The notes: a model not told the origin generated them from the letters alone. DNA of 41,849 bases from Ichthyobacterium seriolicida (GCF_002369955.1 NZ_AP014564.1:1-41849), one strand, 5' to 3'. Counted from the stretch's first letter, positions 13,501 through 41,849 are shown. A program made the numbers and translations.

Positions 13501-13770
13501 TTCATTACCTGATAACAGATCTTCTGATGCAGATATATTTGAAACCTGACTGAATGCATCTTGTATGGCCTCTTCGGGAATATTAGGATTTAACTGCGAT
13601 AAAGCTCGCCTGAAACGCTCACGTAACAATACATCACTATAGCTCCTTCTCTCTGAAAATTCACCCTCTGCTGATATTTGCTGACCGTACAAATAGTTAT
13701 AGCCCAAACTCTGTAATTTTTCTACTATAAGTCGTTCTATATTATTTTCAAAAAACTTATTTTCACTCAT
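10570..13770 (-). CDS. hsdR: Type I restriction enzyme R subunit HsdR with altered Walker B
   Basis: HsdR is the motor and nuclease subunit of type I restriction enzymes. It translocates DNA with its superfamily 2 ATPase and cuts far from the recognition site. The 1066-residue protein has an N-terminal PD-(D/E)xK nuclease (KPDIILF near 145, VIELKN near 160), Walker A HTQGSGKS (about 312-319), motif III FTGTP, and late helicase motifs TGFDVPS and QAIARVNR. Helicase motif II, normally DEAH(R), reads NEADK at residues 414-418 (codons 12517-12531), so the Mg-binding aspartate is asparagine. The motif Ia region (IIDKNDFGELF) also looks one residue short. The reading frame is intact, so this is either a functional variant or an early loss of activity. 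It is last in the hsdM-hsdS-hsdR order, 220 bp after hsdS. Confidence 0.95.
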   Translation of the reverse strand: MSENKFFENNIERLIVEKLQSLGYNYLYGQQISAEGEFSERRSYSDVLLRERFRRALSQLNPNIPEEAIQDAFSQVSNISASEDLLSGNEAFHKMLTQGIRVSYYKDGTTRGDLVRIIDFDNIKKNDFTVVNQFTVVEHNDIKKPDIILFVNGLPLVVIELKNSLYKKETIKSAYNQLQAYINSIPKLFIYNSLCVISDGIEAKSGSLSAAFSRFLNWKTKDRKTLAPNLDSSIEILIQGQLNKATLTDIIRHFTLFDKSKIEDPKRGITTINIVKRVASYHQYYGVNKAVESSKIASLENGNRKAGVIWHTQGSGKSLSMVFYAGKIVRELNNPTVLVIIDKNDFGELFHTFTSASQLLRQTPVKANDKQHLKTLLKVTSGGVIFTTIQKFQIKEGNEYERLTDRKNVIVIANEADKIQYGFRSKKTDDIDENGNVIKGQPIVYGFAKYMRDALPNATYLGFTGTPIDSKDINTFGVFGNYVDTYDIEQSINDGLTLPVFYESRFGKVNLSEQDRELVGQLDEKSVSQELVEIQKPRSNWARLEASIGSESRIKNIAKDIVDHFIERQSVFEGKAIVVAMSRRIVMQLYDEIIAIMPEWHDNDVYKGVIKAVVAISPSVGSSNTEKIKYHAKKQQRRTLALRMKDPYDQLKIVIVTNMWLTGFDVPSMHTLYIYKPLKGYKLMQAIARVNRIYKDKPGGLVVDYLGLASDFKKSLDFYGNSRGKGNPVIFEKEAEDLFLEKIKVVSQMFLEKPELGNLKSLEHAFVNYKDFFSSKKSERLKIILTAQEHILSLDNGKKRFIDEVTSLSKLYVNTMMHSKVIELKDEIALFQALKVRLSKYISEIVDKTDYESESLIHMLSNEDLFSEEIVDVFDAAGIKKPEGSVLSEEFLIQIKQMQHQNTALEVLKKILREEIKYIAKINTVQGESLREILENTVDEYRNKTLTNTDAIERLASLAKQIKELYGPRDFLGLTDYELIFYDIISQGQGAKEVLGDEQLRDLAVYLADTFKNNISVDWVVKESVRAKLKVLLKRGLRKYGYPIDQQKLITRIILNQARFLPELLS

Positions 13771-13990
13771 TTAATTTGACACAATAATTTTTTTTCTACT
13801 AATTTATAATCAACACTTCTATAAGGATATCTTATTGATAAGATAAAAACTGTCAAAACTCATAAAAGACTCAAGAAATATTTTCAAATTCTCCTTTTTT
13901 GAGAATTATAATGTTAAACCACTATTAATTCAACAATTCTGAGTTTATCCCCATGTGATAAATTATTTCTCTATTAGTTAAATTTGATTT
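13771..13990. other. hsdS-hsdR intergenic region with two inverted repeats
   Basis: This 220-bp AT-rich gap separates hsdS and hsdR. It holds an 18-bp near-perfect palindrome at 13828-13845 (arms TATCTTAT / ATAAGATA). It also holds a 7-bp-arm hairpin at 13887-13907 (AATTCTC / GAGAATT). Neither is followed by a T-run on the minus strand, so I do not call a terminator. The palindrome sits about 60 bp before the hsdR start and could be an operator; no regulator gene adjoins. No TAnnTTTG promoter was found. Confidence 0.4.
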
Positions 13991-15175
13991 TTAAAATTTT
14001 ACTCTCACCTCTCCATTTATCAGTTTTGGCAAGAGCAAATCTCTAAGCCTTTCCAATGCCTGTATCTGAAAAACATTATTTGTGATTTTATCAAACATGA
14101 TTGATATAGATTTCATACCCCTTTCTAAATAGTCTTTATCGGGCACGATTATGTAGTTTTGTCCAATATCACTTTTATTTATATGTGACTGAGCTACGCC
14201 TGTTTGGCTAGAAATAATTTTTCCTATTATATGGTTTATCCACAAAAAAATAAATTCTTTTGAATATTGTTCATTTGGAATAATTCCCACAACAGACTGA
14301 TTTGTACAAGTATCTATTTCTAATAGACTGACTTTACCTAAAGTAGCACCTGTTATGGCAATAACAGTAGTTCCTTTGGGAAACAACTTAGTGCTGGATT
14401 GTTTCAAACCTAATTCTGTGATAAATTTAATCCCATTTGTTATCCTAAAATTATTTACCTCACCTGAGTTAATCCAAGGAATATTACCATTCCAATAATC
14501 TTCATTAGAAGTGTCAGGGGTCCCCCCTATCTCTATTTTTAGAACGTCCTTGATTTTGACTAATCCCCAACTATCGTTAGGCGTATCTGTAAATAACTTT
14601 CTAAATAATACTTTTGATAAATCCTCTAAAGTTGTGTTTTGCCTGTGTAATAAATCTATCTTATCATCCAAACTATTTAAAACATTTGCTATGGCTTTTT
14701 GTTCTTTAAGCGGAGGGAGATCAACTGAGATTCCTTCAAATGTATTTCTGGTTATAGTGTCGAATATACCTCCATAAGACACTTGTAATAAATCTGACAG
14801 TTTATGTTTTAATAGATAAAACACATAATCATTAGTCGAAAATAATGGGTCAGCTTTTATACCGTAACAAGACTGATTAAAAGACATAGGTATACTCAAT
14901 ACACCTAAAGATCCAACTGTACCACGAGCCGAAATAACAATATCGCCTTTTTCCAACATCTTAGCAGAACTCTCGTTTAATCCTCTCTCTGTAATACATT
15001 TTTCTGTTATATCTATGTATTTACGTCCAGGTTTCAAATCTCTTATAGAAATCCAATGTATGTTGCCATTCCAATAATCTTTTACCTCTGTCTTTGGAGT
15101 GCCTCCCCCAACAATATGTATTATTTGAGATAATTTTGTTTTATCCCATCTCTTATTATCACTATTATTGATCAC
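13991..15175 (-). CDS. hsdS: Type I restriction-modification specificity subunit HsdS
   Basis: HsdS gives the type I enzyme its bipartite DNA recognition. The 394 residues contain two target-recognition domains, each beginning with a similar edge strand (GGGTPKTEVKDYWNGNIHW near 25 and GGTPDTSNEDYWNGNIPW near 215). Each TRD is followed by a conserved helical spacer: LPPLKEQKAIANVLNSLDDKI after TRD1, and a related helix ending LRDLLLPKLINGEV at the C-terminus. This is a complete two-TRD subunit. No second hsdS, invertible repeat or recombinase lies beside it, so phase variation by inversion is not indicated here. The target sequence cannot be predicted by eye. It follows hsdM by 73 bp, probably in the same transcript. 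Confidence 0.95.
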   Translation of the reverse strand: MINNSDNKRWDKTKLSQIIHIVGGGTPKTEVKDYWNGNIHWISIRDLKPGRKYIDITEKCITERGLNESSAKMLEKGDIVISARGTVGSLGVLSIPMSFNQSCYGIKADPLFSTNDYVFYLLKHKLSDLLQVSYGGIFDTITRNTFEGISVDLPPLKEQKAIANVLNSLDDKIDLLHRQNTTLEDLSKVLFRKLFTDTPNDSWGLVKIKDVLKIEIGGTPDTSNEDYWNGNIPWINSGEVNNFRITNGIKFITELGLKQSSTKLFPKGTTVIAITGATLGKVSLLEIDTCTNQSVVGIIPNEQYSKEFIFLWINHIIGKIISSQTGVAQSHINKSDIGQNYIIVPDKDYLERGMKSISIMFDKITNNVFQIQALERLRDLLLPKLINGEVRVKF

Positions 15176-15248
15176 AGTATCACACCTTTTATAAAGTAGA
15201 TTTTTTGTAGATTCTCCTCTCCTAAATTATACATCATCATTCAAATTG

Positions 15249-16790
15249 CTAAGTATTCATATCAATCTTAGAAAGATTAGTTATTATAGATTTGTTAATC
15301 TTATCTTCGTCTTTTAGCTGCATCTCCAATATGGTTTTCAGACTCATAAAACGTTCAGAAAAATCGAATTCTTTTTCTTCATTATTTGCTAAACCCACAT
15401 AACATCCTGGCATTAGTACACAGTCTAGCTCCTTTACTCGTTCTATGTTTTCAGATTTGCAAAAACCAGGGATATCTAAATAATTCCCATCTATATTACG
15501 CCAGTTGTGATAGGTGTCTGATATTAAGGATATATCATCTCGACTCAATTGTCTATTCCTACGGCTGATCAAGTTTCCTAAATAGCGAGCGTCTATAAAT
15601 AAAATCTCATCTTTTCTATTTCTAAACTTGCCATTATTTTCTCGATCACGAGATATAAACCACATACAAGCTGGTATTTGAGTGTTCAAAAATAGTTTTG
15701 TAGGCAGATTTACAATACAATCTACTAATCCTGCCTCTACCAAATTTCTACGAATGTCATCTTCACCTGAAGCTTTTGTGGTCAATGAACTTTTAGATAA
15801 TACAAAGCCAGCTTGACCAGATGGTGACAAGTGATGTAAAAAATGTTGTATCCAAGCGTAATTAGCATTAGATGCAGGAGGAACACCATATTGCCATCTA
15901 CAATCTTTATTGAGCGAACTATCGCTCCAATCATCGTCATTAAAAGGTGGGTTAGCGACAATATAATCTGCTTTTATATCTTTGTGTTCATCTCTTAAAA
16001 ATGAACCTTCATTATTCCACTTGACTTGAGAACTATCTATACCACGAATGGCTAAGTTCATTTTTGCTAAACGCCAAGTCGTCTGATTGCTCTCTTGGCC
16101 ATAGACAGAGATATCACTTAACTTACCTCGGTTTTGTAATACAAATTTTTCACTTTGTACAAACATTCCACCACTACCACAGCAAGGATCCATAATACGA
16201 CCTTTATACGGCTCCAACATTTGAACTAACAATTCCACCACACTAGAAGGAGTATAAAACTGACCGCCTTTTTTCCCCTCTGCCAATGCGAACTCTCCCA
16301 ATAAATATTTGAACACATAACTCAAGACGTCTGAATTACTACCTGTAGCATCACCTAAGTCTATATTGCCTATCATATCTATCAATATTCCCAAGCTTGA
16401 AGTGTCCAAGTTTTCTTTTACGTATACCTTAGGTAATACGCCTTTAAGTCTTGAATTCTCTCTTTCAATATCTTCCATAGCCGAGTCAATCAGCTTACCT
16501 ATCTCCACGTTTTTAGCATTGTCTTGAATAAAACTCCAACGCGCTTTTTGGGGAACAAAAAATATATTTTCCCCTTTATACTCATCTTTATCCTCTGGAT
16601 CTGCACCTTCGTATTCGCCTTTACCTTCTTTTAATTTTGAATGTAAATTGTCAAATGCATATGATATATAACGCAGAAATACCAATCCTAATACTACGTG
16701 TTTATACTCTGCTGCATCTACATTTTTCTTTAACCTATTAGCGGTTAGCCACAATACTTTTTCTAAAGACTCTTGCTTTTTTCTTGCCAT
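15249..16790 (-). CDS. hsdM: Type I DNA methyltransferase subunit HsdM
   Basis: HsdM is the N6-adenine methyltransferase of the type I complex. It protects host DNA as M2S and is needed for restriction as R2M2S. The 513-residue protein has the helical HsdM N-terminal domain (about 1-150), the segment GEFALAEGKKGGQFYTPSSV, and SAM-binding motif I DPCCGSGGMF. The catalytic motif IV is NPPF, within IVANPPFNDDDW. All key residues are present, so methylation should work even if HsdR does not. It is first in the operon, with a candidate promoter at 16841-16848 (minus). Confidence 0.96.
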   Translation of the reverse strand: MARKKQESLEKVLWLTANRLKKNVDAAEYKHVVLGLVFLRYISYAFDNLHSKLKEGKGEYEGADPEDKDEYKGENIFFVPQKARWSFIQDNAKNVEIGKLIDSAMEDIERENSRLKGVLPKVYVKENLDTSSLGILIDMIGNIDLGDATGSNSDVLSYVFKYLLGEFALAEGKKGGQFYTPSSVVELLVQMLEPYKGRIMDPCCGSGGMFVQSEKFVLQNRGKLSDISVYGQESNQTTWRLAKMNLAIRGIDSSQVKWNNEGSFLRDEHKDIKADYIVANPPFNDDDWSDSSLNKDCRWQYGVPPASNANYAWIQHFLHHLSPSGQAGFVLSKSSLTTKASGEDDIRRNLVEAGLVDCIVNLPTKLFLNTQIPACMWFISRDRENNGKFRNRKDEILFIDARYLGNLISRRNRQLSRDDISLISDTYHNWRNIDGNYLDIPGFCKSENIERVKELDCVLMPGCYVGLANNEEKEFDFSERFMSLKTILEMQLKDEDKINKSIITNLSKIDMNT

Positions 16791-17108: not shown

Positions 17109-17136
17109 CAAAAAAAGAGGCTAAAAAACCCCTTTT
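17109..17136 (-). terminator. Rho-independent terminator of the lipoprotein array
   Basis: Read on the minus strand, AAAAGGGG, an 8-nt loop and CCTCTTTT form an 8-bp stem with one G-U pair. A run of T follows (plus-strand A-run 17110-17116). It begins about 31 nt after the stop codon of the last lipoprotein gene, so it plausibly ends the whole eight-gene transcript. Confidence 0.7.
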
Positions 17137-17167: not shown

Positions 17168-18286
17168 TTAAGACACAGGAGCTTCAGCATTAATTGTTAA
17201 CTTATAGTGTTTTTTAGTAACACCATCTTGAGCTACTACAGTGAATTTGTATTCGATTTTTGCGTTACTAGAAGCTCCTTTAAGGTCTGTTGTAGTAGTG
17301 CTAGCAGTGCCGCCACTTTTAATTCCAGTAATTGGATTGACATTATTGCAATCAGTACCGCTGCAAGCAGTAGTGGTAGCATCAACTTCAATAAAAGCAC
17401 CATTTGGAAGTTTTAATGCATCTGCTTTGAAATAATCAGTATCTACAACTCCATTTTCCTTAAGCTCTCCAGGAGTTTTTCCACTTGTACTCTTTCTAAG
17501 TTGAAATTCAAATGGTTTAGCCTCTGTACCGTCTTTTTTATCACTTTCAGTAGGAGCAACATAATGAGCTTTTATTGTGCTGTTAGATGTAGGAGTAACA
17601 GCTCCTGTTCCCACTGGAGTAAGGTTGGTAATAGTATTAATTCCAGTATCAGCAACTGTAAATTTAAAATCATCTGGTCCTATAGTACAATCCTTTGATG
17701 GTTTATCATGAACAAAAACAATTTTAAATACTTTTTCAATAGGGTTAGAGTCTTTTTCTTTTCTACTGAGTTTAAAACTGTGGCTAATTCCTTCAGGTTT
17801 TATCAGCTTACTGTGAATTAATTCAGTTGTAATATCATAATCAAAGGAAGTAATGGTAGAATCAAGTGGAGTTGTACTATCACCTAAATAAATATTTGGT
17901 CCAATTTTCCCATTAAAAGTAATAGTAGCCTTTAGTGTCGCAGCAGTACTTATATCTAAGGTTTTATCAAATGGTACAAGCACTTTAATAACACCATCTG
18001 CTTCTATTCTTGCTTCAAACTTATCATATGATTTATCAGTATACGCAAGAGCAGGAGTCTTTTTGATAAATAGAGCTGCATAAGTCTCAGTAGCAGAAGT
18101 GTTTCCTGTCACGCTATTTTTATACTTTGTAAAAGCTATACTTTTAATATTTGCAATTGCTTTCTGTATATCTGCTTTAGCATCTTCTTCTGTCTTAGGC
18201 CCTTCAGTTGGTTTAGCACATGAGAAAACCACCAACCCAAGAGTTAGTAGTGATAATGTATTTTTAAATAAAATATTTGTTTTCAT
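17168..18286 (-). CDS. Short-type (A) array lipoprotein, copy A1
   Basis: This 372-residue predicted lipoprotein is the last gene of the array. Its signal ends in a lipobox-like VVFSC (Cys about 23), followed by AKPTEGPKTEED. The first module (about 45-200) contains TYAALFIKKTPALAYTDKSY and YLGDSTTPLDSTITSFDYD. The second module (about 200-370) starts CTIGPDDFKF and ends VVAQDGVTKKHYKLTIN, a closing strand like that of cadherin-like or DUF5018-type beta-sandwiches. Its variable loop before NPITG has a cysteine pair (ACSGTDC). No function is known to me. It is probably tethered to the outer membrane and possibly surface exposed. Downstream lies the terminator at 17109. Confidence 0.85.
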   Translation of the reverse strand: MKTNILFKNTLSLLTLGLVVFSCAKPTEGPKTEEDAKADIQKAIANIKSIAFTKYKNSVTGNTSATETYAALFIKKTPALAYTDKSYDKFEARIEADGVIKVLVPFDKTLDISTAATLKATITFNGKIGPNIYLGDSTTPLDSTITSFDYDITTELIHSKLIKPEGISHSFKLSRKEKDSNPIEKVFKIVFVHDKPSKDCTIGPDDFKFTVADTGINTITNLTPVGTGAVTPTSNSTIKAHYVAPTESDKKDGTEAKPFEFQLRKSTSGKTPGELKENGVVDTDYFKADALKLPNGAFIEVDATTTACSGTDCNNVNPITGIKSGGTASTTTTDLKGASSNAKIEYKFTVVAQDGVTKKHYKLTINAEAPVS

Positions 18287-18341
18287 AATTTATAATGATT
18301 AATAATAAAAGAACAACAGCCTATAATTGTGATTTTGAATT

Positions 18342-19475
18342 CTATCCAGCAGGAGCAGCAGGAGGCGCATCTGCATTAATAGTTAATTTGTAATATTTCT
18401 TACTTGTTCCATCTTGAGCTACTACTATGAATTTATATTCGATTTTTTGTCCAGATGTAGAAGGGCCTTTAAGATCTGTAGTGCTACTGTTAGCAGATCC
18501 ACCAGTCTTAATTCCAGTAATTGGATTGACGTTGTTACAATCATTACTGCCGCAAGCAGTAGTCTCAGTAGAAACCTCAATATAAGCCCCATCGGGAAGT
18601 TTTAAGGCATCTGCTTTGAAATAAGCACTAGCATCAACTCCATCAGTCTTAAGCTCTCCAGGAAGATTACTGGTGCCAGAAGCACTCTTCCTAAGCTGAA
18701 ATTCAAATGGCTTATCCTCTGTACCATAGTCAGTATCAACACTAGCAACATAATGAGCTTTTATTGTGCTGTTAGCTGTAGGAGCAGTAGGGCTTCCTGA
18801 TCCTACTGGAGTAAGGTTAGTAACTGTATTAATGTTACTGGTATTAACTGTAAACTTAAAATCATTTGGTCCTATAGTACAATCCTTTGATGGTTTATCA
18901 TGAACGAAGACAACTTTACATACTTTTTCAATAGGGTTAGAGTCTTTTTCTTTTCTGCTGAGTTTAAAACTGTGGCTAATTCCTTCAGGTTTTATCAGCT
19001 TACTGTGAATTAATTCAGTTGTAATATCATAATCAAAGGAAGTAATGGTAGAATCAAGTGAAGTTGTACTATCACCTAAATAAATATTTGGTCCAATTTT
19101 CCCATTAAAAGTAATGGTAGCCTTTAGTGTCGCAGCAGTTATATTTAATGTTTTATCAAATGGCACAAACACTTTAATAACACCATTTGATTCTATTCTT
19201 GCCTCAAATTTATCATATGATTTATCAGTATACGCAAGAGCAGGAGTTTTTTTGATAAATAGAGCTGCATAAGCCTCAGTAGCAGAAGTGTTTCCTGTCG
19301 CGCTATTTTTATCCTTTGTAAAAGCTATAGTTTTAATATTTGCAATTGCTTTCTGTATATCTGCTTTAGTATCTTCTTCTGTCTTAGGCCCTTCAGTTGG
19401 TTTAGTACATGAGAAAACCACCAACCCAAGAGTTAGTAGTGATAATGTATTTTTAAATAAAATATTTGTTTTCAT
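18342..19475 (-). CDS. Short-type (A) array lipoprotein, copy A2
   Basis: This 377-residue paralogue of A1 has lipobox VVFSC, then TKPTEGPKTEED, the same two-module layout and a short proline-alanine tail (ADAPPAAPAG). Its C-terminal ~80 residues are identical to those of the neighbouring long protein B2. The first module instead follows A1 closely (FVPFDKTLNITAATLKAT, GDSTTSLDSTITSFDYD). The protein is therefore a mosaic of two neighbours. The cysteine loop before NPITG is TTACGSNDCNNV. The 55-bp spacers on both sides are identical to each other. Function is not recognised. Confidence 0.85.
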   Translation of the reverse strand: MKTNILFKNTLSLLTLGLVVFSCTKPTEGPKTEEDTKADIQKAIANIKTIAFTKDKNSATGNTSATEAYAALFIKKTPALAYTDKSYDKFEARIESNGVIKVFVPFDKTLNITAATLKATITFNGKIGPNIYLGDSTTSLDSTITSFDYDITTELIHSKLIKPEGISHSFKLSRKEKDSNPIEKVCKVVFVHDKPSKDCTIGPNDFKFTVNTSNINTVTNLTPVGSGSPTAPTANSTIKAHYVASVDTDYGTEDKPFEFQLRKSASGTSNLPGELKTDGVDASAYFKADALKLPDGAYIEVSTETTACGSNDCNNVNPITGIKTGGSANSSTTDLKGPSTSGQKIEYKFIVVAQDGTSKKYYKLTINADAPPAAPAG

Positions 19476-19530
19476 AATTTATAATGATTAATAATAAAAG
19501 AACAACAGCCTATAATTGTGATTTTGAATT

Positions 19531-21273
19531 CTATCCAGCAGGAGCAGCAGGAGGCGCATCTGCATTAATAGTTAATTTGTAATATTTCTTACTTGTTCCA
19601 TCTTGAGCTACTACTATGAATTTATATTCGATTTTTTGTCCAGATGTAGAAGGGCCTTTAAGATCTGTAGTGCTACTGTTAGCAGATCCACCAGTCTTAA
19701 TTCCAGTAATTGGATTGACGTTGTTACAATCATTACTGCCGCAAGCAGTAGTCTCAGTAGAAACCTCAATATAAGCCCCATCAGGAAGAATTAAGGCATC
19801 TGCTTTGAAATAAGCACTAGCATCAACCCCACTACTCTTAAGTTCACCAGCAGGGTTACTGGTGTCAGAAGGACTCTTTCTAAGTTGAAATTCAAATGGC
19901 TTATCCTCTGTACCCTTACCTTCTTCACTAGAAGGAGTAACATAATGAGCTTTTATTGTGCTGTTAGCTGTAGGAGTAACAGCTCCTGTTCCCACTGGAG
20001 TAAGGTTAGTAACAGTGTTAATACTGCCAGTGGCATTAACTGTAAATTTAAAATCATTTTGTCCTATAGTGCACTCCGTAGATTTAAGATCTAAAAACTT
20101 AAAATGCATAGTATATACCTTATCAGCAAATCCCTCTTTAGAGAATTTAATAACTTGTTTGATAGGAGTTGGAACAGTAGTAGCAGGCACTGATAAGTTT
20201 TCTTTGGTGAAAACATCTTTACTTATTTGAAAAGAAATATCTGCAGTATTGCCTGTAATAGCAGTCTTAGAAGTATCAGAATCTCCTAAAACTGAGGAAA
20301 CCCCATCGACAGCAGTTTTAAACCCAAGAGTAACTATAACAGTAGCGTCTGCCGTTAAAGGCTGATGCTGTGAGTTATAAGGAAGTTTTACGTAAACATC
20401 ATTTTCAACTATATCTGCAGTTTGAATTGTAAACTCAGCTGGATAACCGTTAGAACTAGCATCTACAGCAACATCTTTTCCTTTAGCTCTAGGAGGAGTT
20501 TTAGCAATAAAGAGTTTTTCGTAAAACTCAGAGATATTATCATCAGTTAGATTATTACTCTTCTCAAACTCTACAGAGCTGATCTCTAATTCTAGTTGTG
20601 GTATAGAAACCGTTACGGTATAGGTTTTTGCTTCTCCTTTTTCAGGAGTAACTACATAATTTACGGGGTTTGTAAAGTTTTGTGCTGCTAGAGAAAGTGG
20701 ATCTATTGTTTCTCCTACAAACTCTATTGTAGGAATTAAACTTGATATTAAACTTTCTTTATCAACAGGTAAAACAACAGATATCTTAGTAGAATCCGCA
20801 GGATTAATAACTCCTTTTATATCTTCACTCAGACTGGTATTCTTAGCGGCCTCAAATTTGAAAGACAATATTTTATTCTCTGAGCTTGGTTCTGATACAG
20901 ATACCGTTACGATATAAGTTTTAGCTTCTCCTTTTTCAGGAGTAATTGTAAAAGCTACAGGCTTAGAAAAATCTGTAATTGTATCAGGGGATGGAGTTAT
21001 TTTTTTTCCTATAAATTGTATTGTAGGAACTAACTTGGTTATTAATTCTCTTTTTTTATAAGCTAAAACAACAGATATCTTAGTAGAATCCGCAGAATCA
21101 ATACTAATATTTATGTCTTCTTTATCTAAACCTTCATTCTTGAAGGGCTCAAAGTTTAAACTGAAAGAAAGTAAAGAATCAATATCCGAACCATTTTCTA
21201 CTCCTTTTGTACAAGAAGTAAATGATATAATTTGAAAAACAAATAAATAAAACAGTAAAATTTTTGACTTCAT
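19531..21273 (-). CDS. Long-type (B) array lipoprotein, copy B2
   Basis: This 580-residue predicted lipoprotein has signal sequence and lipobox-like SFTSC (Cys about 21). Four modules follow. Two tandem beta-sandwich repeats (about 30-115 and 116-210) share DSTKISVVL and end in TPEKGEAKTYxVTVS, resembling DUF5018 or cadherin-like folds. The third module (about 215-400) corresponds to the first module of the short type (EKLFIAKTPPRAKGK, SVLGDSDTSKTAIT, VYTMHFKF). The fourth is the shared C-terminal module (CTIGQNDFKF to YYKLTINADAP). Nucleotides 20094-20391 are identical by eye to 27681-27978 in B4, and its 3' end is shared with A2. Role unknown; adhesion or ligand binding is inference from the folds. 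Confidence 0.85.
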   Translation of the reverse strand: MKSKILLFYLFVFQIISFTSCTKGVENGSDIDSLLSFSLNFEPFKNEGLDKEDINISIDSADSTKISVVLAYKKRELITKLVPTIQFIGKKITPSPDTITDFSKPVAFTITPEKGEAKTYIVTVSVSEPSSENKILSFKFEAAKNTSLSEDIKGVINPADSTKISVVLPVDKESLISSLIPTIEFVGETIDPLSLAAQNFTNPVNYVVTPEKGEAKTYTVTVSIPQLELEISSVEFEKSNNLTDDNISEFYEKLFIAKTPPRAKGKDVAVDASSNGYPAEFTIQTADIVENDVYVKLPYNSQHQPLTADATVIVTLGFKTAVDGVSSVLGDSDTSKTAITGNTADISFQISKDVFTKENLSVPATTVPTPIKQVIKFSKEGFADKVYTMHFKFLDLKSTECTIGQNDFKFTVNATGSINTVTNLTPVGTGAVTPTANSTIKAHYVTPSSEEGKGTEDKPFEFQLRKSPSDTSNPAGELKSSGVDASAYFKADALILPDGAYIEVSTETTACGSNDCNNVNPITGIKTGGSANSSTTDLKGPSTSGQKIEYKFIVVAQDGTSKKYYKLTINADAPPAAPAG

Positions 21274-21338
21274 AATATTATAATGATTAATAATAAAAGG
21301 GCAACAGCCTAAATAATTAATTGTGATTTTGAATAATA

Positions 21339-22529
21339 CTAATTACTAGCAGGAGCAGTAGGAGCCTCCGCATTAATTGTTAACTTATAGTGTTTTTTAG
21401 TCTTCCCATCCTGAGCTACCACTGTGAATTTATATTCTACTTTTGCTTGACCAGAAGTTCCTTTAAGATCTGTTATAGCTCCAGTAGCACCACCAGTTTT
21501 TTTCAATCCAGTAATTGGGTTAACATCACAACAAACAGTAGCAGCACCTCCACCTCCATTGGGAGTAGTACAAGCGGTATCACCAACCTCAATAAAAGCC
21601 CCATCTGGAAGTTTTAATGCATCTGCTTTGAAATATTTACTAGCATCTGCTCCTTGCTCAAGCTCACCATCTGTAGCATCAGTAGCTGGACCTGGAGTAG
21701 TAGCAGTGCTTTTCTTTATTCTAAGCTGAAATTCAAATGGTTTAGCTTCCGAACCATCATTAGGACCACTACCACTGCTAGCAGTATTAGCAGCAGCATA
21801 ATGAGCTCTAACTATTGAGTTAGCTGCTCTAGCTGTGCTATTAATAGTTCTAAAATTACCGATTGCATTAATTCCACTCTCAGCAACTATAAATTTGAAA
21901 TCATCTTGTCCTATAGTACAATCAGCTGATGGTTTATCATGGACGAAGACAACTTTACATACTTTTTCAATAGGGTTAGAACCTTTTTCTTTTCTGCTGA
22001 GTTTAAAACTGTGACTAATTCCTTCAGCCTTTATTAACTTACTGTGAATTAATTCGGTTGTAATATCATAATCAAAGGAGGTAACGGTAGAATCAAGTGG
22101 AGTTTTTTCATCACCTAAATAGATATTTGGTCCAAGTTTTCCACTAAGAGTAATGATAGCCTTTAGTGTTACAGGAGCACTTATATTTAAAGTCTTATCA
22201 AATGGGACAAGTACCTTAATAATACCATCTGATTCTATTCTTGCTTCAAATTTATTATATATATCATCGGTATATGGAAGAGCTGGGGTCCTTTTAATAA
22301 AAAGAGCTTTATAAGCCTCAGAGGGAGTAGCAGCACTAGCAGGGGTTCCTGTGCTATTTGCAGCCTTTGTAAACACAAAACTTTTAATGCTAACAAATGA
22401 TTTTTCACTTGCCCCTGCCTCATATTCTTCCTTTGTTTTAGGGCCTTCAGTTGGTCTAGTACATGAGAAAACCACCAACCCAAGAGTTAGTAGTGATAAT
22501 GTGTGTTTAAATAAAATATTTGTTTTCAT
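21339..22529 (-). CDS. Short-type (A) array lipoprotein, copy A3
   Basis: This 396-residue short-type member has lipobox VVFSC and TRPTEGPKTKEE. The segment after the signal differs from A1/A2 and instead pairs with A5 (SIKSFVFTKA, STGTPAS..TPSEAY). The C-terminal module is the most divergent in the array. FRTINSTARAANSIVRAHY replaces the usual TNLTPVG stretch, and the cysteine loop is long and glycine-rich (TACTTPNGGGGAATVCCDV). The protein ends in a short Pro-Ala-Ser tail. It lies between B3 and B2 with about 60-bp conserved spacers. Function not recognised. Confidence 0.85.
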   Translation of the reverse strand: MKTNILFKHTLSLLTLGLVVFSCTRPTEGPKTKEEYEAGASEKSFVSIKSFVFTKAANSTGTPASAATPSEAYKALFIKRTPALPYTDDIYNKFEARIESDGIIKVLVPFDKTLNISAPVTLKAIITLSGKLGPNIYLGDEKTPLDSTVTSFDYDITTELIHSKLIKAEGISHSFKLSRKEKGSNPIEKVCKVVFVHDKPSADCTIGQDDFKFIVAESGINAIGNFRTINSTARAANSIVRAHYAAANTASSGSGPNDGSEAKPFEFQLRIKKSTATTPGPATDATDGELEQGADASKYFKADALKLPDGAFIEVGDTACTTPNGGGGAATVCCDVNPITGLKKTGGATGAITDLKGTSGQAKVEYKFTVVAQDGKTKKHYKLTINAEAPTAPASN

Positions 22530-22590
22530 AATTTATAATGATTAATAATAAAAGAGCAACAGCCTAAATAATTAATTGTGATTTTGAATT

Positions 22591-24558
22591 CTATCCAGTA
22601 GAAACAGGAGGAGAGGCAGGAGCAGGAGCAAGACCAGTAGGAGTAGAAGTACCAGCAGAACCAGTAGCAGCAGCAGTAGGATCAGAAGTAGTACTGATAG
22701 CAGGAGGAGCAGCAGAACCATCAGGATCAGCAGCAGCAAGATCAGTAGAAGCAGGAGCATCACGAGAAGGAGTAGTAGAAGTAGAAGTGGTAGGAGCAGG
22801 AGTAGCAGGAGCAACAGGAACGACAGGAGCAGCAGAAGCAGTAGAAGCAGTAGAACCAGGAGCAGGAGCAGAAGCAGAAGCGGTAGGCGCATCCGCATTA
22901 ATAGTTAATTTATAGTACTTCTTACTTATTCCATCTTGAGCTACTACTGTGAATTTATATTCGACTTTTGCTTGACCAGAAGCTCCTTTAAGTTGCTGAC
23001 CATCAGTACCTGAGCTGCTATTTCCAGTAATTGGATTAACATCATCATCATTTTCTAATACAATATAAGCCCCATCAGGAAGTTTTAAAGCATCTGCTTT
23101 AAAATAATCAGCAGCTCCAACCCCATCAGTCTTAAGCTCTCCAGGAGGATTACTGGTGTCCGAAGGACTCTTCCTAAGCTGAAATTCAATTGGGTTAGTA
23201 CTCGTGCCAGGGTTAGCATCAGCACTAGTAACATAATGAGCCTTTACTATTGTATCAGCCAAAGGAGCAACAGGGCTTCCTGATCCAGTTGGAGTAAAGT
23301 TAGTAACAGTGTTAATACTGCCAGTAGCAGCAACTGTAAATTTAAAATCATCTGGTCCTATAGTACCTAGATCAGATCTAGTTTCTGAAAACTTAAAATG
23401 CATAGTATATACCTTATTAGCAAATCCTTCTTTGGAGAATTTAAAAGCCAGTTTAAAAGGAGTAGCAGACTCTAATTTATCCTTTGTAAGATCTGTTGTA
23501 GCTACTTTAAAAGTGATATCTGTAGTATTGCCTGTAATAGAAGTATTAGAATTCTCAGAATCTCCTAAAACTAAGGAAACACCGTCAACATCAGATTTAA
23601 ACCCAAGAGTAGCTGTAACAGTAGCTTCTGACGTTAAAGGCTTTAACTGCGAGTTATAAGGAAGTTTTACATAAATATTATTTTCAACTATATCTGTAGT
23701 TTGAATTGTAAACATAAACTCAGCTGGATAACCGTTAGTGGCATCACCTTCAGCAATATCTTTTCCTTTAGCTCTAGCAGGAGTTTTTGTGATAAATAGC
23801 TTTTCATAAAACTCCGAAATATCATCTCCATTTAGATTCTTACTTTTCTCAAACTTTACAGAGCTAATCTCTAATTCTAGTTGTGGTATAGATACCGTTA
23901 CGGTATAAGTTTTAGCTTCTCCTTTTTCAGGAGTAACTACATAATTTACTGGGGTTGTAAAGTTTTGTGCTACTAGAGAAAGCGGATCTATTGTTTCTCC
24001 TACAAACTCTATTGTAGGAATTAAACTTGATATTAAACTTTCTTTATCAGCAGGTAAAACAACAGATATCTTAGTAGAATCGACAGGATTGATAACTCCA
24101 AGGATATCTTCACTTAGACCAGTATTCTTAGCAGCCTCAAATTTGAAAGACAATATTTTATTTTCAGAGCTTGGTTCTGATAAAGATACCGTTACGGTAT
24201 AAGTTTTAGCTTCCCCTTTTTCAGGAGTAATTGTAAAATCTACAGGTTTAGAAAAATCTGTAATTGTATCAGGGGATGGTGTTATTTTTTTTCCTATAAA
24301 TTGTACTGTAGGAACTAACTTGGTTATTAATCCTCTTTTTTTATAAGCTAAAACAACAGATACCTTAGTAGAATCCGCAGAATCAATACTAATATTTATA
24401 TCTTCTTGGCTTAATCCTTCATTCTTGAAGGGCTCAAAGTTTAAACTGAAAGAAAGTAAAGAATCAATATCCGAACCATTTTCTACTCCTTTTGTACAAG
24501 AAGTAAATGATATAATTTGAAAAACAAATAAATAAAATAGTAAGATTTTTGACTTCAT
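22591..24558 (-). CDS. Long-type (B) array lipoprotein, copy B3, with long Ala/Pro/Ser/Thr tail
   Basis: At 655 residues this is the largest array member. It has the signal, SFTSC lipobox, two tandem DUF5018-like modules, the third module and the shared C-terminal module. It then carries a tail of about 100 low-complexity residues rich in Ala, Pro, Ser and Thr (from about 555), encoded by imperfect triplet repeats at 22594-22890. Module 3 lacks the tract shared by B2 and B4 and has its own version (SQLKPLTSEATVTATLGFKS). The C-terminal module has lost its leading cysteine (GTIGPDDFKF), and its loop before NPITG is only ENDDDV without cysteines. Tails like this often act as flexible wall- or surface-spanning spacers; here that is inference. 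Confidence 0.85.
   Translation of the reverse strand: MKSKILLFYLFVFQIISFTSCTKGVENGSDIDSLLSFSLNFEPFKNEGLSQEDINISIDSADSTKVSVVLAYKKRGLITKLVPTVQFIGKKITPSPDTITDFSKPVDFTITPEKGEAKTYTVTVSLSEPSSENKILSFKFEAAKNTGLSEDILGVINPVDSTKISVVLPADKESLISSLIPTIEFVGETIDPLSLVAQNFTTPVNYVVTPEKGEAKTYTVTVSIPQLELEISSVKFEKSKNLNGDDISEFYEKLFITKTPARAKGKDIAEGDATNGYPAEFMFTIQTTDIVENNIYVKLPYNSQLKPLTSEATVTATLGFKSDVDGVSLVLGDSENSNTSITGNTTDITFKVATTDLTKDKLESATPFKLAFKFSKEGFANKVYTMHFKFSETRSDLGTIGPDDFKFTVAATGSINTVTNFTPTGSGSPVAPLADTIVKAHYVTSADANPGTSTNPIEFQLRKSPSDTSNPPGELKTDGVGAADYFKADALKLPDGAYIVLENDDDVNPITGNSSSGTDGQQLKGASGQAKVEYKFTVVAQDGISKKYYKLTINADAPTASASAPAPGSTASTASAAPVVPVAPATPAPTTSTSTTPSRDAPASTDLAAADPDGSAAPPAISTTSDPTAAATGSAGTSTPTGLAPAPASPPVSTG
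22594..22890 (-). repeat. Imperfect triplet-repeat tract encoding the B3 tail
   Basis: About 300 bp are built almost entirely from variants of GCA/GGA/GTA/GAA-type triplets on the plus strand (for example gcaggagcaggagcaaga). They encode an Ala/Pro/Ser/Thr-rich C-terminus on the minus strand. The strong triplet periodicity also creates a spurious leucine-rich frame. Length changes by slippage in multiples of three would keep the gene open. Confidence 0.75.
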
Positions 24559-24620
24559 AATATTATAATGATTAATAATAAAAGGGCAACAGCCTAAATA
24601 ATTAATTGTGATTTTGAATT

Positions 24621-25733
24621 CTATCCAGTAGGAGCAGCAGTAGGAGCATCCGCATTAATTGTTAATTTATAATATTTCTTAGTCTCCCCATCTTGAGCTA
24701 CAACTCTGAATGTATAACCCTGAGCTGTACTTGTGTTTGCTCCTCCTTTAAGGTCTGTCTGATTAGCCGTAGTAGTAGCTCCAGTTTTTTTCATTCCAGT
24801 GATTGGATTAATATCATCCCCAGCAGTAGTGCTGACCTCAATAAACGCTCCATCTGGAAGAATTAAAGCATCTGCTTTGAAATAATCGGTATTGCCAACT
24901 CCACCTTCCTTAAGTTCGCCAGCAGGCTTACTACTTTCACTCTTTCTAAGCTGAAATTCAATTGGGTTTGTACTTGAACCATAATCGGTAACGTTAGCAG
25001 TAGGAGCAACATAATGAGCTTTTATTGTGCTGTTAGATGTAGGAGTAACAGCTCCTGTTCCCACCGGAGTAAGGTTAGTAACTGTATTAATGTTACTCGC
25101 ATTAACTGTAAATTTGAAATCATCTGGTCCTATAGTACAATCAGCTGATGGTTTATCATGGACAAAAACAATTTTAAATACTTTTTCAATAGGGTTAGAA
25201 TCCTTTTCTTTTCTACTGAGTTTAAAACTGTGGCTAATTCCTTCAGCCTTTATTAACTTACTGTGAATTAATTCAGTGGTAATATCATGATCAAAAGAAG
25301 CAGCATTAGAATCAAGTGGAGTTGTACTATCACCTAAATAGATATTGGGTCCTATTTTCCCATTAAAAGTAATGGTAGCCTTTAGTGTCGCAGCAGTTAT
25401 GTTTAATGTTTTATCAAATGGCACAAACACTTTAATAACACCGTCTGCTTCTATTCTTGCTTCAAATTTATCATATGATTTATCAGTATACGCAAGAGCT
25501 GGAGTCTTTTTTATAAAAAGAGCTGCATAAGCCTCAGTAGCAGAAGTGTTTCCTGTCGCACTATTTTTATCCTTTGTAAAAGCTATACTTTTAATATTTG
25601 CAATTGCTTTCTGTATATCTCCTTTAGCATCTTCTTCTGTCTTAGGCCCTTCAGTTGGTTTAGTACACGAAAAAATCACTAAAGCAAGACTTAATAATGA
25701 CAAAGCGTTTTTAAATAAAAAATTAATTTTCAT
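24621..25733 (-). CDS. Short-type (A) array lipoprotein, copy A4
   Basis: This 370-residue short-type paralogue has a slightly divergent signal (MKINFLFKNALSLLSLALVI, lipobox VIFSC), then TKPTEGPKTEED and two modules. Module 1 resembles A1/A2, with changes DSNAASFDHD where others have DSTITSFDYD. The C-terminal module keeps the leading cysteine (ADCTIGPDDFKF). Its loop before NPITG is short and cysteine-free (STTAGDDI), and the end of the module is unusual (TAQGYTFRVVAQDGETKKYY). The A4-A5 spacer has minor indels relative to the others. Function not recognised. Confidence 0.85.
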   Translation of the reverse strand: MKINFLFKNALSLLSLALVIFSCTKPTEGPKTEEDAKGDIQKAIANIKSIAFTKDKNSATGNTSATEAYAALFIKKTPALAYTDKSYDKFEARIEADGVIKVFVPFDKTLNITAATLKATITFNGKIGPNIYLGDSTTPLDSNAASFDHDITTELIHSKLIKAEGISHSFKLSRKEKDSNPIEKVFKIVFVHDKPSADCTIGPDDFKFTVNASNINTVTNLTPVGTGAVTPTSNSTIKAHYVAPTANVTDYGSSTNPIEFQLRKSESSKPAGELKEGGVGNTDYFKADALILPDGAFIEVSTTAGDDINPITGMKKTGATTTANQTDLKGGANTSTAQGYTFRVVAQDGETKKYYKLTINADAPTAAPTG

Positions 25734-25793
25734 AATTTTGATGATTAATAATAAAAGGGCAATAGCCTAAATAATTAATTGTGATTTTGAATT

Positions 25794-26945
25794 CTATCCA
25801 GCAGGAGCAGCATCCGCATTAATAGTTAATTTGTAATATTTCTTACTTGTTCCATCTTGAGCTACTACTGTAAATTTGTATTCGATTTTATTTCCAGATG
25901 TAGAATGTCCTTTAAGATCTGTTGTAGTAGTGGCGCTAGCAGTTCCGCCAGTTCTAACTCCAGTAATTGGATTGACATTGGCACATGTAGCAGGAGTGCT
26001 ACTGCCAGGACAAGCATTAGTGTCAGTAGAAACCTCAATATAAGCGCCATCGGGAAGTTTTAAGGCATCTGCTTTGAAATAAGCACTAGCATCAACTCCA
26101 CCTTGCTTAAGTTCGCCAGCAGGCTTACTACTTTCACTCTTTCTAAGTTGAAATTCAGCTGGTTTACCAGCCTCTAAACCATATTTAGCATCAGTACTAG
26201 CAACATAATGAGCTTTTATTGTGCTGTTAGCTGTAGGAGCAGTAGGGCTTCCTGATCCTACTGGAGTAAGGTTAGTAACTGTATTAATGTTACTCGTATT
26301 AACTGTAAATTTAAAATCATCTGGTCCTATAGTACAATCCTTTGATGGTTTATCATGAACGAAGACGACTTTACATACTTTTTCAATAGGGTTAGAGTCT
26401 TTTTCTTTTCTGCTGAGTTTAAAACTATGACTAATTCCTTCAGATTTTATCAGCTTACTGTGAATTAATTCAGTTGTAATATCATAATCAAAGGAAGTAA
26501 TGGTAGAATCAAGTGGAGTTGTACTATCACCTAAATAAATATTTGGTCCAATTTTCCCATTAAAAGTAATAGTAGCCTTTAGTGTTACAGGAGCACTTAT
26601 ATTTAAAGTCTTATCAAATGGCACAAGCACTTTAATAACACCATCTGCTTCTATTCTTGCTTCAAATTTTTCATATGATTTATCAGTATACGCAAGAGCA
26701 GGAGTCTTTTTTATAAAAAGAGCTGCATAAGCCTCAGAGGGAGTAGCAGTACTAGCAGGGGTTCCTGTGCTATTTCCAGCCTTTGTAAATACAAAACTTT
26801 TAATGCTAACAAGTGATTTTTCACTTACCCCTGCCTCAGATTCTTCCTTTGTTTTAGGGCCTTCAGTTGGTTTAGTACATGAGAAAACCACCACCCCAAG
26901 AGTTAGTAGTGATAATGTGTTTTTAAATAAAATATTTGTTTTCAT
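25794..26945 (-). CDS. Short-type (A) array lipoprotein, copy A5
   Basis: This 383-residue short-type member is the second gene in transcription order. It has lipobox VVFSC and TKPTEGPKTKEE. Its N-terminal module begins like A3 (SIKSFVFTKA, TGTPASTATPSEAY) but continues like A1/A2 (TFNGKIGPNIYLGDSTTPLD). Its C-terminal module begins as in A2 (NTSNINTVTNLTPVGSGSP) but has its own loop with two cysteines (NACPGSSTPATCANV). This switching of affinity along the gene suggests recombination among copies. Function not recognised. Confidence 0.85.
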   Translation of the reverse strand: MKTNILFKNTLSLLTLGVVVFSCTKPTEGPKTKEESEAGVSEKSLVSIKSFVFTKAGNSTGTPASTATPSEAYAALFIKKTPALAYTDKSYEKFEARIEADGVIKVLVPFDKTLNISAPVTLKATITFNGKIGPNIYLGDSTTPLDSTITSFDYDITTELIHSKLIKSEGISHSFKLSRKEKDSNPIEKVCKVVFVHDKPSKDCTIGPDDFKFTVNTSNINTVTNLTPVGSGSPTAPTANSTIKAHYVASTDAKYGLEAGKPAEFQLRKSESSKPAGELKQGGVDASAYFKADALKLPDGAYIEVSTDTNACPGSSTPATCANVNPITGVRTGGTASATTTTDLKGHSTSGNKIEYKFTVVAQDGTSKKYYKLTINADAAPAG

Positions 26946-27006
26946 AATTTATAATGATTAATGATAAAAAGGCAACAGCCTAAATAATTAATTGTGATTT
27001 TGAATT

Positions 27007-28860
27007 CTATCCAGTAGGAGGAGTTACAGAAGGAGAAGGAGAAGCAACAACAGGAACAGCAGCAGGAGCAGCAGCAGGAGCAGCAGCAGGAGCAGCAACA
27101 GGAGCAGAAGCAGAAGCAGAAGCAGAAGCGGTAGGCGCATCCGCATTAATAGTTAATTTATAGTACTTCTTACTTGTTCCATCTTGAGCTACTACTGTGA
27201 ATTTATATTCGACTTTTGCTTGACCAGAAGCTCCTTTAAGTTGCTGACCATCAGTACTTGAGCTGCTATTTCCAGTAATTGGATTGACATCACAACAAAC
27301 GGTAGCACCACTCCTATCAGGAGTAGTACAAGCAGTATTACCAACCTCAATATAAGCCCCATCTGGAAGAATTAAAGCATCTGCTTTGAAATAAGCACTA
27401 GCATCAACTCCATCAGCCTTAAGCTCTCCAGGAGGATTACTGGTGTCAGAAGGGCTCTTTCTAAGCTGAAATTCAAATGGGTTAGCCTCTGTACCTTTTT
27501 CATCACTAGAAGAGGTAATATAATGAGCTTTAACTATGGCTCCAGCCGCAGGAGCAGCAGGAGCAGGAGTCCCTGATCCAGTTGGAGTAAGATTAGTAAC
27601 AGTGTTTATACCAGTAGTTTGGTCAACTGTAAATTTAAAATCCTCTTCTCCTATAGTGCACTCTGTAGATTTTTCATCTGAAAACTTAAAATGCATAGTA
27701 TATACCTTATCAGCAAATCCCTCTTTAGAGAATTTAATAACTTGTTTGATAGGAGTTGGAACAGTAGTAGCAGGCACTGATAAGTTTTCTTTGGTGAAAA
27801 CATCTTTACTTATTTGAAAAGAAATATCTGCAGTATTGCCTGTAATAGCAGTCTTAGAAGTATCAGAATCTCCTAAAACTGAGGAAACCCCATCGACAGC
27901 AGTTTTAAACCCAAGAGTAACTATAACAGTAGCGTCTGCCGTTAAAGGCTGATGCTGTGAGTTATAAGGAAGTTTTACATAAATATTGTTTTCAACTATA
28001 TCTGTAGTTTGGATTGTAAACTCAGCTGGATAACCGTTAGTGGTATCACCTTCAGCAATATCTTTTCCTTTAGCTCTAGAAGGAGTTTTTGTAATAAATA
28101 GCTTCTCGTAGAACTCAGAGATATTATCGTTAGTTAAATTTTTACTCTTCTCAAACTTTACAGAGCTAATCTCTAATTCTAGTTGTGGTATAGAAACCGT
28201 TACGGCATAAGTTTTAGCTTCTCCTTTTTCAGGAGTAACTACATAATTTACGGGGGTTGTAAAGTTTTGTGCTACCCCAGAAAGCGGATCTATTGTTTCT
28301 CCTACAAACTCTATTGTAGGAATTAAACTTGATATTAAACTTTCTTTATCAGAAGGTAAAACAACAGATATCTTAGTAGAGTCTGCAGGATTGATAATTC
28401 CAAGGATATCTTCACTTAGACCAGTATTCTTAGCAGCCTCAAATTTGAAAGACAATATTTTATTTTCAGAGCTTGGTTCTGATAAAGATACCGTTACGGT
28501 ATAAGTTTTAGCTTCTCCTTTTTCAGGAGTAATTGTAAAATCTACAGGTTTAGAAAAATCTGTAATTGTATCAGGGGATGGTGTTATTTTTTTTCCTATA
28601 AATTGTACTGTAGGAACTAACTTGGTTATTAATTCTCTTTTCCTATAAGCTAAAACAACAGATACCTTAGTAGAATCGGCAGGGTCAATACTAATATTTA
28701 TATCTTCCTTATTTAAACCTTCATTCTTGAAGGGCTCAAAGTTTAAACTGAAAGAAAGTAAAGAATCAATATCTGAACTATTTTGTACTCCTTTTGTACA
28801 AGAAGTAAAAGAGATAATTTGAAAAATAATTACAGAAAATAGTAAAATTTTTGATTTCAT
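27007..28860 (-). CDS. Long-type (B) array lipoprotein, copy B4 (first gene of the array)
   Basis: This is the first gene in transcription order, 617 residues from the ATG at 28860. An in-frame ATG 18 nt upstream would add six residues ahead of the signal and is less likely given its paralogues. It has the SFTSC lipobox, two tandem DUF5018-like modules, a third module sharing 298 identical bp with B2, and the common C-terminal module with a CTTPDRSGATVCCD loop. It ends in an Ala/Pro tail made of a 12-bp repeat (27054-27128). The last module is closest to B3. The 242 bp upstream should hold the array's main promoter, but I found no canonical TAnnTTTG there. Function unknown. Confidence 0.85.
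   Translation of the reverse strand: MKSKILLFSVIIFQIISFTSCTKGVQNSSDIDSLLSFSLNFEPFKNEGLNKEDINISIDPADSTKVSVVLAYRKRELITKLVPTVQFIGKKITPSPDTITDFSKPVDFTITPEKGEAKTYTVTVSLSEPSSENKILSFKFEAAKNTGLSEDILGIINPADSTKISVVLPSDKESLISSLIPTIEFVGETIDPLSGVAQNFTTPVNYVVTPEKGEAKTYAVTVSIPQLELEISSVKFEKSKNLTNDNISEFYEKLFITKTPSRAKGKDIAEGDTTNGYPAEFTIQTTDIVENNIYVKLPYNSQHQPLTADATVIVTLGFKTAVDGVSSVLGDSDTSKTAITGNTADISFQISKDVFTKENLSVPATTVPTPIKQVIKFSKEGFADKVYTMHFKFSDEKSTECTIGEEDFKFTVDQTTGINTVTNLTPTGSGTPAPAAPAAGAIVKAHYITSSSDEKGTEANPFEFQLRKSPSDTSNPPGELKADGVDASAYFKADALILPDGAYIEVGNTACTTPDRSGATVCCDVNPITGNSSSSTDGQQLKGASGQAKVEYKFTVVAQDGTSKKYYKLTINADAPTASASASASAPVAAPAAAPAAAPAAVPVVASPSPSVTPPTG
27040..27130 (-). repeat. 12-bp and 6-bp tandem repeats encoding the B4 tail
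   Basis: The plus strand shows about three to four copies of a 12-bp unit (gcagcaggagca) followed by about four copies of gcagaa. They encode the alternating Ala-Ala-Pro and Ala-Ser tail of B4. All units are multiples of three. Confidence 0.75.
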
Positions 28861-29152
28861 AATATTTAAAATAATCAAACTAAAAGCCTATTTTATAGAT
28901 AAATCACGCACAATCTTCAAGCTTTCTAGTCTCAGTTGATAAATATGCTAAATTAGTAGTTTATATAAAACTAAAAAGAAATATTATTCTTTGCAGTTAA
29001 ACCAAAATGCTTTATTAAACTCTTTTTTTTGACGCGTTTAGCACCCATTTTATTGCAAGATATCAGCGGAATCATGTTAAAAGCTATTTGAGATTTAGCT
29101 CTAAAGTTTTGATATTTTTGCTTTGATTTTTTTTAACTGTGAAATCGATACG
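28861..29152. other. Divergent intergenic region between the lipoprotein array and the DUF457 gene
   Basis: This 292-bp AT-rich region must hold start signals in both directions. On the plus side there is a good promoter at 29087-29120. On the minus side, towards the lipoprotein array, I see no clear consensus element. No RNA gene or mobile-element remnant is recognisable. Confidence 0.5.
29087..29120 (+). promoter_or_regulatory. Bacteroidota-type promoter for the DUF457 gene
   Basis: TTTG at 29087-29090 is followed after 22 nt by TATTTTTG at 29113-29120, a full match to TTG-N17-23-TAnnTTTG. Transcription would start about 29126, some 27 nt before the ATG at 29153. This also supports the later start codon. 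Confidence 0.6.
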
Positions 29153-41455: not shown

Positions 41456-41506
41456 ATCGCCTCATAAGCATAAAAGACCCCAAAACTAAAGGTAAGGGGT
41501 ATTTAC

Positions 41507-41849
41507 TTAACCCAGATTATTCATAGTTACCCTTTAAATATTGCGCATAAAGTGTTAATTTTAAGGCATTAAAGTCCAAAGAAACATACTTTAATATAGC
41601 CCAAAAATGAGGAATAAAAACACATTATTTTATAGAGGGAAAACTTCTGTTGAGTTAACTTTTTCATCATCAGAAATTAGCTCTGATGGATCTTTAATCA
41701 TGCTTGAAAAACTAGAAAGAGATCATAGATTGATTCATTATTACAGTAAACTTTTGCCTGATACTCGAGACTCTAGATTTATTACTTATACCAGAAAGCA
41801 ACAGTTAAAACAAAGGGTTTATATGATCATGTTAGGCTATGAAGACGCC
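41507..41849 (+). mobile_element. IS1380-family insertion sequence, left part (continues beyond the window)
   Basis: The element begins with inverted-repeat sequence TTAACCCAGATTATTCATAG at 41507 and carries a transposase gene from 41607. Its right end is outside the window, so completeness is unknown. The 51 bp between it and the isolated end at 41455 include a small GC-richer inverted repeat (ACCCC/GGGGT, 41477-41500). Confidence 0.75.
41607..41849 (+). CDS. IS1380-family transposase, N-terminal part
   Basis: Eighty-one codons are visible before the window ends. The N-terminus has the IS1380 layout: a short beta region (VELTFSSSEISSDGSLIMLE), a helix with LIHYYSKLLPDTRDSR, and the motif LKQRVYMIMLGYEDA. 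The last corresponds to the family's L-RQRVY-LA-GYED segment before the DDE core. Catalytic residues lie beyond the window. The start ATG is set by homology to the same start preserved in the MITE-like element (39938-39940). Confidence 0.85.
   Translation, partial: MRNKNTLFYRGKTSVELTFSSSEISSDGSLIMLEKLERDHRLIHYYSKLLPDTRDSRFITYTRKQQLKQRVYMIMLGYEDA

Follow-up and report, generated by a model that had tools for sequence, protein, structure and literature searches.

The window, the 41,849-nucleotide stretch of the Ichthyobacterium seriolicida chromosome analyzed here (NZ_AP014564.1:1-41849), has dnaA at position 1 and carries on its minus strand, between 17168 and 28860, an array of eight complete ORFs, each predicting a lipoprotein with a signal peptide and a lipobox cysteine. 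The five A proteins have 370-396 aa and the lipobox VFSC or IFSC; the three B proteins have 580, 617 and 655 aa and the lipobox FTSC. In the order of transcription the genes are B8-A7-A6-B5-A4-B3-A2-A1, that is B-A-A-B-A-B-A-A, and they are separated by seven near-identical spacers of 55, 55, 65, 61, 62, 60 and 61 bp (from the A2/A1 spacer upstream). An earlier sequence-only reading had described eight paralogous same-strand lipoproteins of two size classes in this order, with near-identical spacers of 50-65 bp; the ORFs, signal peptides and lipoboxes were confirmed, and the spacers measure 55-65 bp. It had also placed the array near the origin, which would agree with dnaA in the same window. 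The genes and spacers, with one example of the two modules described below, are as follows.

27007-28860, minus strand: B8, first gene; lipoprotein SP-Ig-Ig-Nb-C with a 43-residue Ala/Pro-rich tail
26946-27006, minus strand: spacer B8/A7, 61 bp
25794-26945, minus strand: A7; lipoprotein SP-Na-C
26337-26855, minus strand: near-constant Na module of A7, by module assignment
25812-26336, minus strand: variable C module of A7, with hypervariable islands between conserved frame blocks
25734-25793, minus strand: spacer A7/A6, 60 bp
24621-25733, minus strand: A6; lipoprotein SP-Na-C
24559-24620, minus strand: spacer A6/B5, 62 bp
22591-24558, minus strand: B5; lipoprotein SP-Ig-Ig-Nb-C with a 99-residue Ala/Pro/Ser/Thr-rich tail
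22530-22590, minus strand: spacer B5/A4, 61 bp
21339-22529, minus strand: A4; lipoprotein SP-Na-C
21274-21338, minus strand: spacer A4/B3, 65 bp
19531-21273, minus strand: B3; lipoprotein SP-Ig-Ig-Nb-C
19476-19530, minus strand: spacer B3/A2, 55 bp
18342-19475, minus strand: A2; lipoprotein SP-Na-C
18287-18341, minus strand: spacer A2/A1, 55 bp, identical to the spacer at 19476-19530
17168-18286, minus strand: A1, last gene; lipoprotein SP-Na-C

Downstream of the array lie the type I restriction-modification genes hsdM, hsdS and hsdR (10570-16790), and upstream, in divergent orientation, a gene for a YdjM-type membrane protein. A tyrosine recombinase gene of Xer size adjoins dnaA (1430-2341). 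A 108-aa ORF at 22572-22898 was rejected as a gene because it arises from reading the repetitive tail of B5. The Ala/Pro/Ser/Thr-rich carboxyl-terminal tails extend over 99 residues in B5 (22591-22890) and 43 in B8 (27007-27138), compared with 4-8 residues in the other proteins; the length of the B5 and B8 tails may differ through repeat slippage.

The proteins are built from three types of shuffled module: Ig-like pairs, N modules (types a and b) and C modules (long and short). An A protein consists of a signal peptide, an N module of type a and a long C module, and a B protein of a signal peptide, two Ig-like modules, an N module of type b and a long C module, with an Ala/Pro-rich tail in two of the three. 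The two N types are homologous (hhalign probability 99.7), as are the long and short C modules (99.4). All four N and C combinations are present in the genome, outside the window array without Ig modules, and the B form (Ig-Ig-N-C) is confined to the window array. Profile searches of the modules, which the earlier reading had proposed, matched the Ig modules of B5 and B8 to DUF5018 (E about 1e-7) with scores of 31.0 and 31.6 against a gathering cut-off of 38.2, and matched the B proteins weakly to DUF6242; every Pfam match in the window proteins falls under the gathering score, and no family was assigned. A related gene at 1772137 scores 48.2 with DUF5018, over the cut-off. DUF5018, DUF6242 and cadherin-like beta-sandwich domains are the nearest known domains. 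The claim that no family or function has been described for this combination of modules was upheld by comparisons with Pfam and NCBIfam and by a search of solved structures, which gave no relative (best E 0.88). AlphaFold2 models were too poor to assign a fold, with a mean pLDDT of 37 for A7 (5 window sequences) and 42 for B8 (8 window sequences), from alignments of window proteins alone that are shallower than the full paralogue set.

The origin of the B form is suggested by its amino terminus. DUF285-repeat lipoproteins that have no N-C part share with the B proteins the signal peptide, the Ig modules and an upstream sequence of about 130 bp; the upstream region of B8 is common to six such genes. 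Because amino terminus and upstream region are common to both, the B form is a fusion of two lipoprotein families, in which the Ig modules, signal peptide and upstream region were presumably taken from the DUF285 lipoprotein superfamily. Likeness to the DUF285/PARCEL repeat lipoproteins of Mycoplasma and others extends to the B-like signal peptide, Ig-like pair and upstream region of the DUF285 lipoproteins in this genome; however, none of the eight window proteins has a DUF285 repeat, and their carboxyl-terminal half is N-C instead. Matches to PF03382 number 78 in this genome, mostly in lipoproteins with a B-type amino terminus, and none in 14 control genomes.

Two features at the ends of the array bear on its transcription.

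28948-28961, minus strand: conserved upstream element AACTACTAATTTAG (pattern ARCTACTANNTTAG), candidate promoter or regulatory site before B8
17113-17136, minus strand: terminator-like hairpin AAAAGGGGTTTTTTAGCCTCTTTT followed by a T-rich tail, visible by eye, past A1

A genome search with ARCTACTANNTTAG gave 29 exact matches, and one with the reversed control gave none; since the pattern was chosen after these upstream regions had been viewed, the count illustrates its breadth and is not an independent test. Nineteen of the 29 matches are upstream of genes of this family or of DUF285 lipoprotein genes, usually 73-101 nt before the start, and six precede a paralogous family of large proteins with collagen and fibre repeats. 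Within the window the single site is that before B8, and the array spacers have none. The pattern resembles the -7 box of Bacteroidota, TAnnTTTG, and has a putative promoter function. A standard scan for sigma-70 promoters found sites no commoner than in shuffled sequence. Terminator-like sites in a scan were fewer than in shuffled sequence; the one hairpin past A1 agrees with the single terminator claimed earlier, although its fold is just slightly better than that of shuffles (z -1.32, a modest value). Hairpins in the spacers were considered as attenuators and rejected, being weak and not conserved across all spacers. Co-transcription, as the earlier reading had proposed, is suggested by the common strand, the short conserved spacers, the sole upstream element before the first gene and the one terminator, and the array is probably an operon. 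With all eight genes complete, they are more probably expressed together, as a mixture, than subject to switching.

Ichthyobacterium seriolicida is a fish pathogen and the sole species of its family. The chromosome of strain JBKA-6T is 1,921,407 bp long (PMC5331501), and when it was searched with one A protein and one B protein, 73 and 91 matches, respectively, were obtained. Module assignment identified 59 genes that are intact and combine one N with one C module, spread over several arrays, so that what had been taken for a stand-alone locus is actually one of several arrays of a 59-gene family. ORFs with any module number 87 and occupy about 104 kb, about 5.4% of the genome, a count that takes in weak Ig-like matches and fragments; the genome-wide statistics are based on arrays fetched around family matches. 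The largest cluster is at 1462-1488 kb, and further ones are at 182-190, 242-252, 986-996 and 1566-1573 kb. Orphan fragments of the family are few, and some are IS-interrupted.

Some members and neighbors of these clusters deserve mention. The seven lipoproteins encoded at 242776-252384 form a divergent sub-family; their N modules are weak and their C modules short, and most of the proteins have CDKDPDD after the lipobox. An IS-like sequence at window positions 41505-41849 is repeated exactly at 1473759 and 1574501; the first of these copies (1473759-1475159) is inside the large lipoprotein cluster, between gene fragments at 1473293-1473757 and 1475350-1475919.

Searches of other genomes found no members of the family. 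A collection of 84,980 species, from which the source genome itself was possibly omitted, gave no relatives with a single sequence or with a 32-row profile; a search with one protein found no member in 98 other Flavobacteriales; and 395 sampled genomes of the phylum gave no relative, the five weak matches there being confined to the signal peptide. Because the phylum search is a sample of 395 genomes, rare relatives may occur elsewhere. Within the searched genomes, the family is restricted to I. seriolicida.

The two halves of these proteins vary to very different degrees. Measured over 15 residues at a time, identity among N modules is mostly 80-95% in four gene sets, which come from three arrays; the type-b set of the large cluster is more variable in N because it is a mixture of two N subtypes. 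In the C module, the conserved blocks FEFQLRK, YFKADALKLPDGAYIEV, NPITG and YKFTVVAQDGT.KKYYKLTINA form a frame around four to five hypervariable islands, where identity drops to 34-60% and in-frame length changes are concentrated, as seen in the four gene sets. Within the window, N modules separate A from B (42-51% DNA identity) and C modules cross the two classes, A2 and B3 being 91% identical and A2 and A4 66%. The ratio dN/dS is below 1 throughout (0.16-0.66), and no overall positive selection was detected.

Exact repeats within the array indicate exchange between its genes.

19407-19782, minus strand: 376-bp exact repeat, copy 1; last 252 nt of B3, spacer and first 69 nt of A2
18218-18593, minus strand: 376-bp exact repeat, copy 2; last 252 nt of A2, spacer and first 69 nt of A1
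20094-20391, minus strand: 298-bp exact tract in the N module of B3, also present in the N module of B8 (27681-27978)

In the runs test of Sawyer, z was 29 for the A genes and 79 for the B genes, and none of 3000 shuffles scored as high; the test also rejects independent evolution of sites in the large cluster. The summed statistic on silent codons gave p values of 0.0005-0.0013 (about 0.001 for A and for B), and the maximum-fragment statistic on silent codons was weaker in two of the four sets. Among 106 pairs of the same array and module type, which have genes in common and thus yield non-independent statistics, dS was greater in C than in N in 93; a strong upward change point in dS was found in 56, and in 46 of these it fell within 25 residues of the N/C boundary. 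In hand-picked pairs, dS rises from 0.008-0.18 to 0.38-0.63, for example from 0.014 to 0.38 or from 0.008 to 0.63. Since silent sites also jump at the boundary, selection on the protein cannot be the sole cause, and recombination is needed. We consider it highly probable that the genes of this family recombine and in doing so trade N and C halves; the variability among paralogues that the earlier reading had suggested is, within one genome, borne out by these statistics. Because the assembly was made with 454 reads and short mate pairs (PMC5331501), halves of near-identical copies may here and there have been joined wrongly.

The window array also retains a record of its growth. Within its genes, distances between N modules and between C modules are uncorrelated (r 0.14, p 0.16), and this holds for all three arrays compared, the window array included. 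A correlation does exist in the window between the C module of one gene and the N module of the next (r 0.73, p 0.001, seven pairs); no significant correlation of this kind was found in two other arrays tested. The similar C modules of B8 and B5 (85%) each precede similar N modules, those of A7 and A4 (90%), and A7, B3 and A2, with similar C modules (83-91%), are followed by A6, A2 and A1, with similar N modules (92-96%). The window array thus appears to have grown by duplicating units that extend from the C module of one gene into the N module of the next, and its order can be divided into (B A A)(B A)(B A A).

Such a history would be accounted for by unequal crossing-over and gene conversion between paralogues, which would duplicate units and place new C halves behind the same N. 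Homology for the exchange could be provided by the conserved N module, the frame of the C module, the 3' end and the spacer, and the outcome would be the amplification and loss of units along with novel N-C pairings. RecA and MutS are present in the genome, a search for serine recombinases (PF00239) found none, and the only two tyrosine recombinases (PF00589) are not beside an array promoter. Exchange probably takes place by general homologous recombination of the RecA type. As all copies are complete, the archive and the expressed set would be the same genes.

A lysine at position +3 after the cysteine is found in 70 of 72 family proteins and an acidic residue at +6 in 48, counts made on the family proteins alone. 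In Capnocytophaga canimorsus, the surface-export signal is K-(D/E)2 just after the cysteine (PMC5080379). The strict motif and its variants are found in 6 of the 72 family proteins, and the strict motif in no window protein. The lysine at +3 recalls the Capnocytophaga signal and suggests that these proteins may be exposed at the surface. There they would most likely be displayed to the host as binding or shielding proteins under diversifying pressure. The variation of one half only, the restriction to one species and life in fish all suggest a host-facing role, as a binding or shielding protein or as an antigen, for which we see about an even chance. In our preferred reading, which we hold with some reserve, the eight complete genes of the array form an operon for outer-membrane lipoproteins whose C half is diversified by recombination among paralogues, and which are most likely host-facing.

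Other explanations would give the genes a different history or use. Phase-variable surface proteins are common in the phylum, and the single conserved element before the first gene might be expected if an invertible promoter or slippage allowed just one gene of the set to be expressed at any time. However, no serine recombinase is encoded, there are only the two tyrosine recombinases, one of them Xer-like in size and beside dnaA, and all eight reading frames are intact with no element before the inner genes; we find such switching very improbable. According to a review, I. seriolicida is clonal and survivors of infection have strong antibody-mediated immunity (PMC11429256), which argues against effective or rapid antigenic switching. 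It is also improbable, on present indications, that the array provides immunity against the polymorphic toxins of rivals. The type VII immunity strings of Firmicutes have a similar anatomy: their genes stand in tandem, recombine and in part encode lipoproteins, and a variable middle separates conserved 5' and 3' blocks (PMC9484751). However, no toxin gene was recognized beside any array, and members of the family are found at many loci. The arrays are flanked by housekeeping genes, a type I restriction system and IS elements, as judged for most flanking ORFs by inspection of their sequence and not by profile. TssC, of the T6SS sheath family, gave no match, but the controls were silent too, so that this has no weight either way.

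Ordinary tandem duplication with concerted evolution comes closer to the observations. The proteins would then have a fixed role, for example in envelope structure or nutrient binding, and the C half would be less constrained and less homogenized. Values of dN/dS below 1 in both halves, the clonality of the species (PMC11429256) and the presence of conversion tracts in both halves (298 bp in N of B3 and B8, 252 bp in C of A2 and B3) are all in agreement with this. Relaxed constraint alone, however, is insufficient to explain the jump at silent sites, and neither 59 copies within a 1.9-Mb genome nor a strict C frame, which in four independent gene sets restricts in-frame indels to the islands, is readily accommodated. 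We consider a fixed role possible but rather unlikely. Diversification of the C half in complete, host-facing lipoproteins remains our preferred reading, and its extension to the whole genome is more speculative. There, every copy in a genome-wide repertoire would be complete and expressed, and continual exchange of C halves would present the fish host with a changing mixture of lipoproteins without silent cassettes or switching; the promoter element common to the DUF285 and collagen/fibre families would make these one surface-diversity regulon. We offer this only tentatively, as a doubtful proposal.

The array is of a known kind, tandem surface-protein paralogues diversified by recombination, and is a member of no named family tested. 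Among its closest parallels are the lpl genes of Staphylococcus aureus in the nuSa-alpha island, which are likewise tandem same-strand lipoprotein paralogues, the largest paralogue group of that genome, and whose recombination unit reaches from the 3' part of a gene across the spacer into the 5' part of the following one (PMC4470592, PMC9484751). In the window, such a two-gene unit is suggested by the 376-bp tract and the r of 0.73; it was not significant in two other arrays. Unlike lpl, the present family belongs to a Bacteroidota outer membrane and has three exchangeable module types and many dispersed arrays, and no Pfam or NCBIfam match linked the window proteins to the staphylococcal family. 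The VlsE lipoprotein of Borrelia alternates variable and invariant regions between conserved ends and changes by segmental gene conversion (PMC4534519). The array lipoproteins similarly alternate variable islands with conserved blocks, but VlsE has one expression site and silent cassettes, whereas here there are 59 complete genes, each with its own signal peptide; no sequence relation to VlsE was found. In the p28/map1 array of Ehrlichia, intact surface-protein paralogues generate diversity through expression of intact copies and recombination (PMC4534519); these belong to another phylum and are outer-membrane proteins, not lipoproteins of the module type of the array. A search of the literature found no variable-antigen gene family of this kind described for the order.

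The observation is more interesting as a family than as a single locus. A reduced genome gives several per cent of its length to one species-restricted mosaic lipoprotein family, which is built like the best-known systems of antigenic variation but out of complete genes only, and which offers a tractable case for the origin of constant/variable gene families. If the proteins are host-facing, they bear on the design of vaccines against bacterial hemolytic jaundice of yellowtail, and the choice of antigen should favor the constant N half or unrelated proteins.

A second paralogous family is found at 1608-1664 kb and consists of large secreted proteins of 676-1416 aa with collagen and phage-fibre repeats, some of them with an S74 chaperone domain. 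In the window itself, positions 35124-39686 encode a 1520-aa protein with 11 fibre-repeat stretches, the start of which is similar to that of the large collagen/fibre family.
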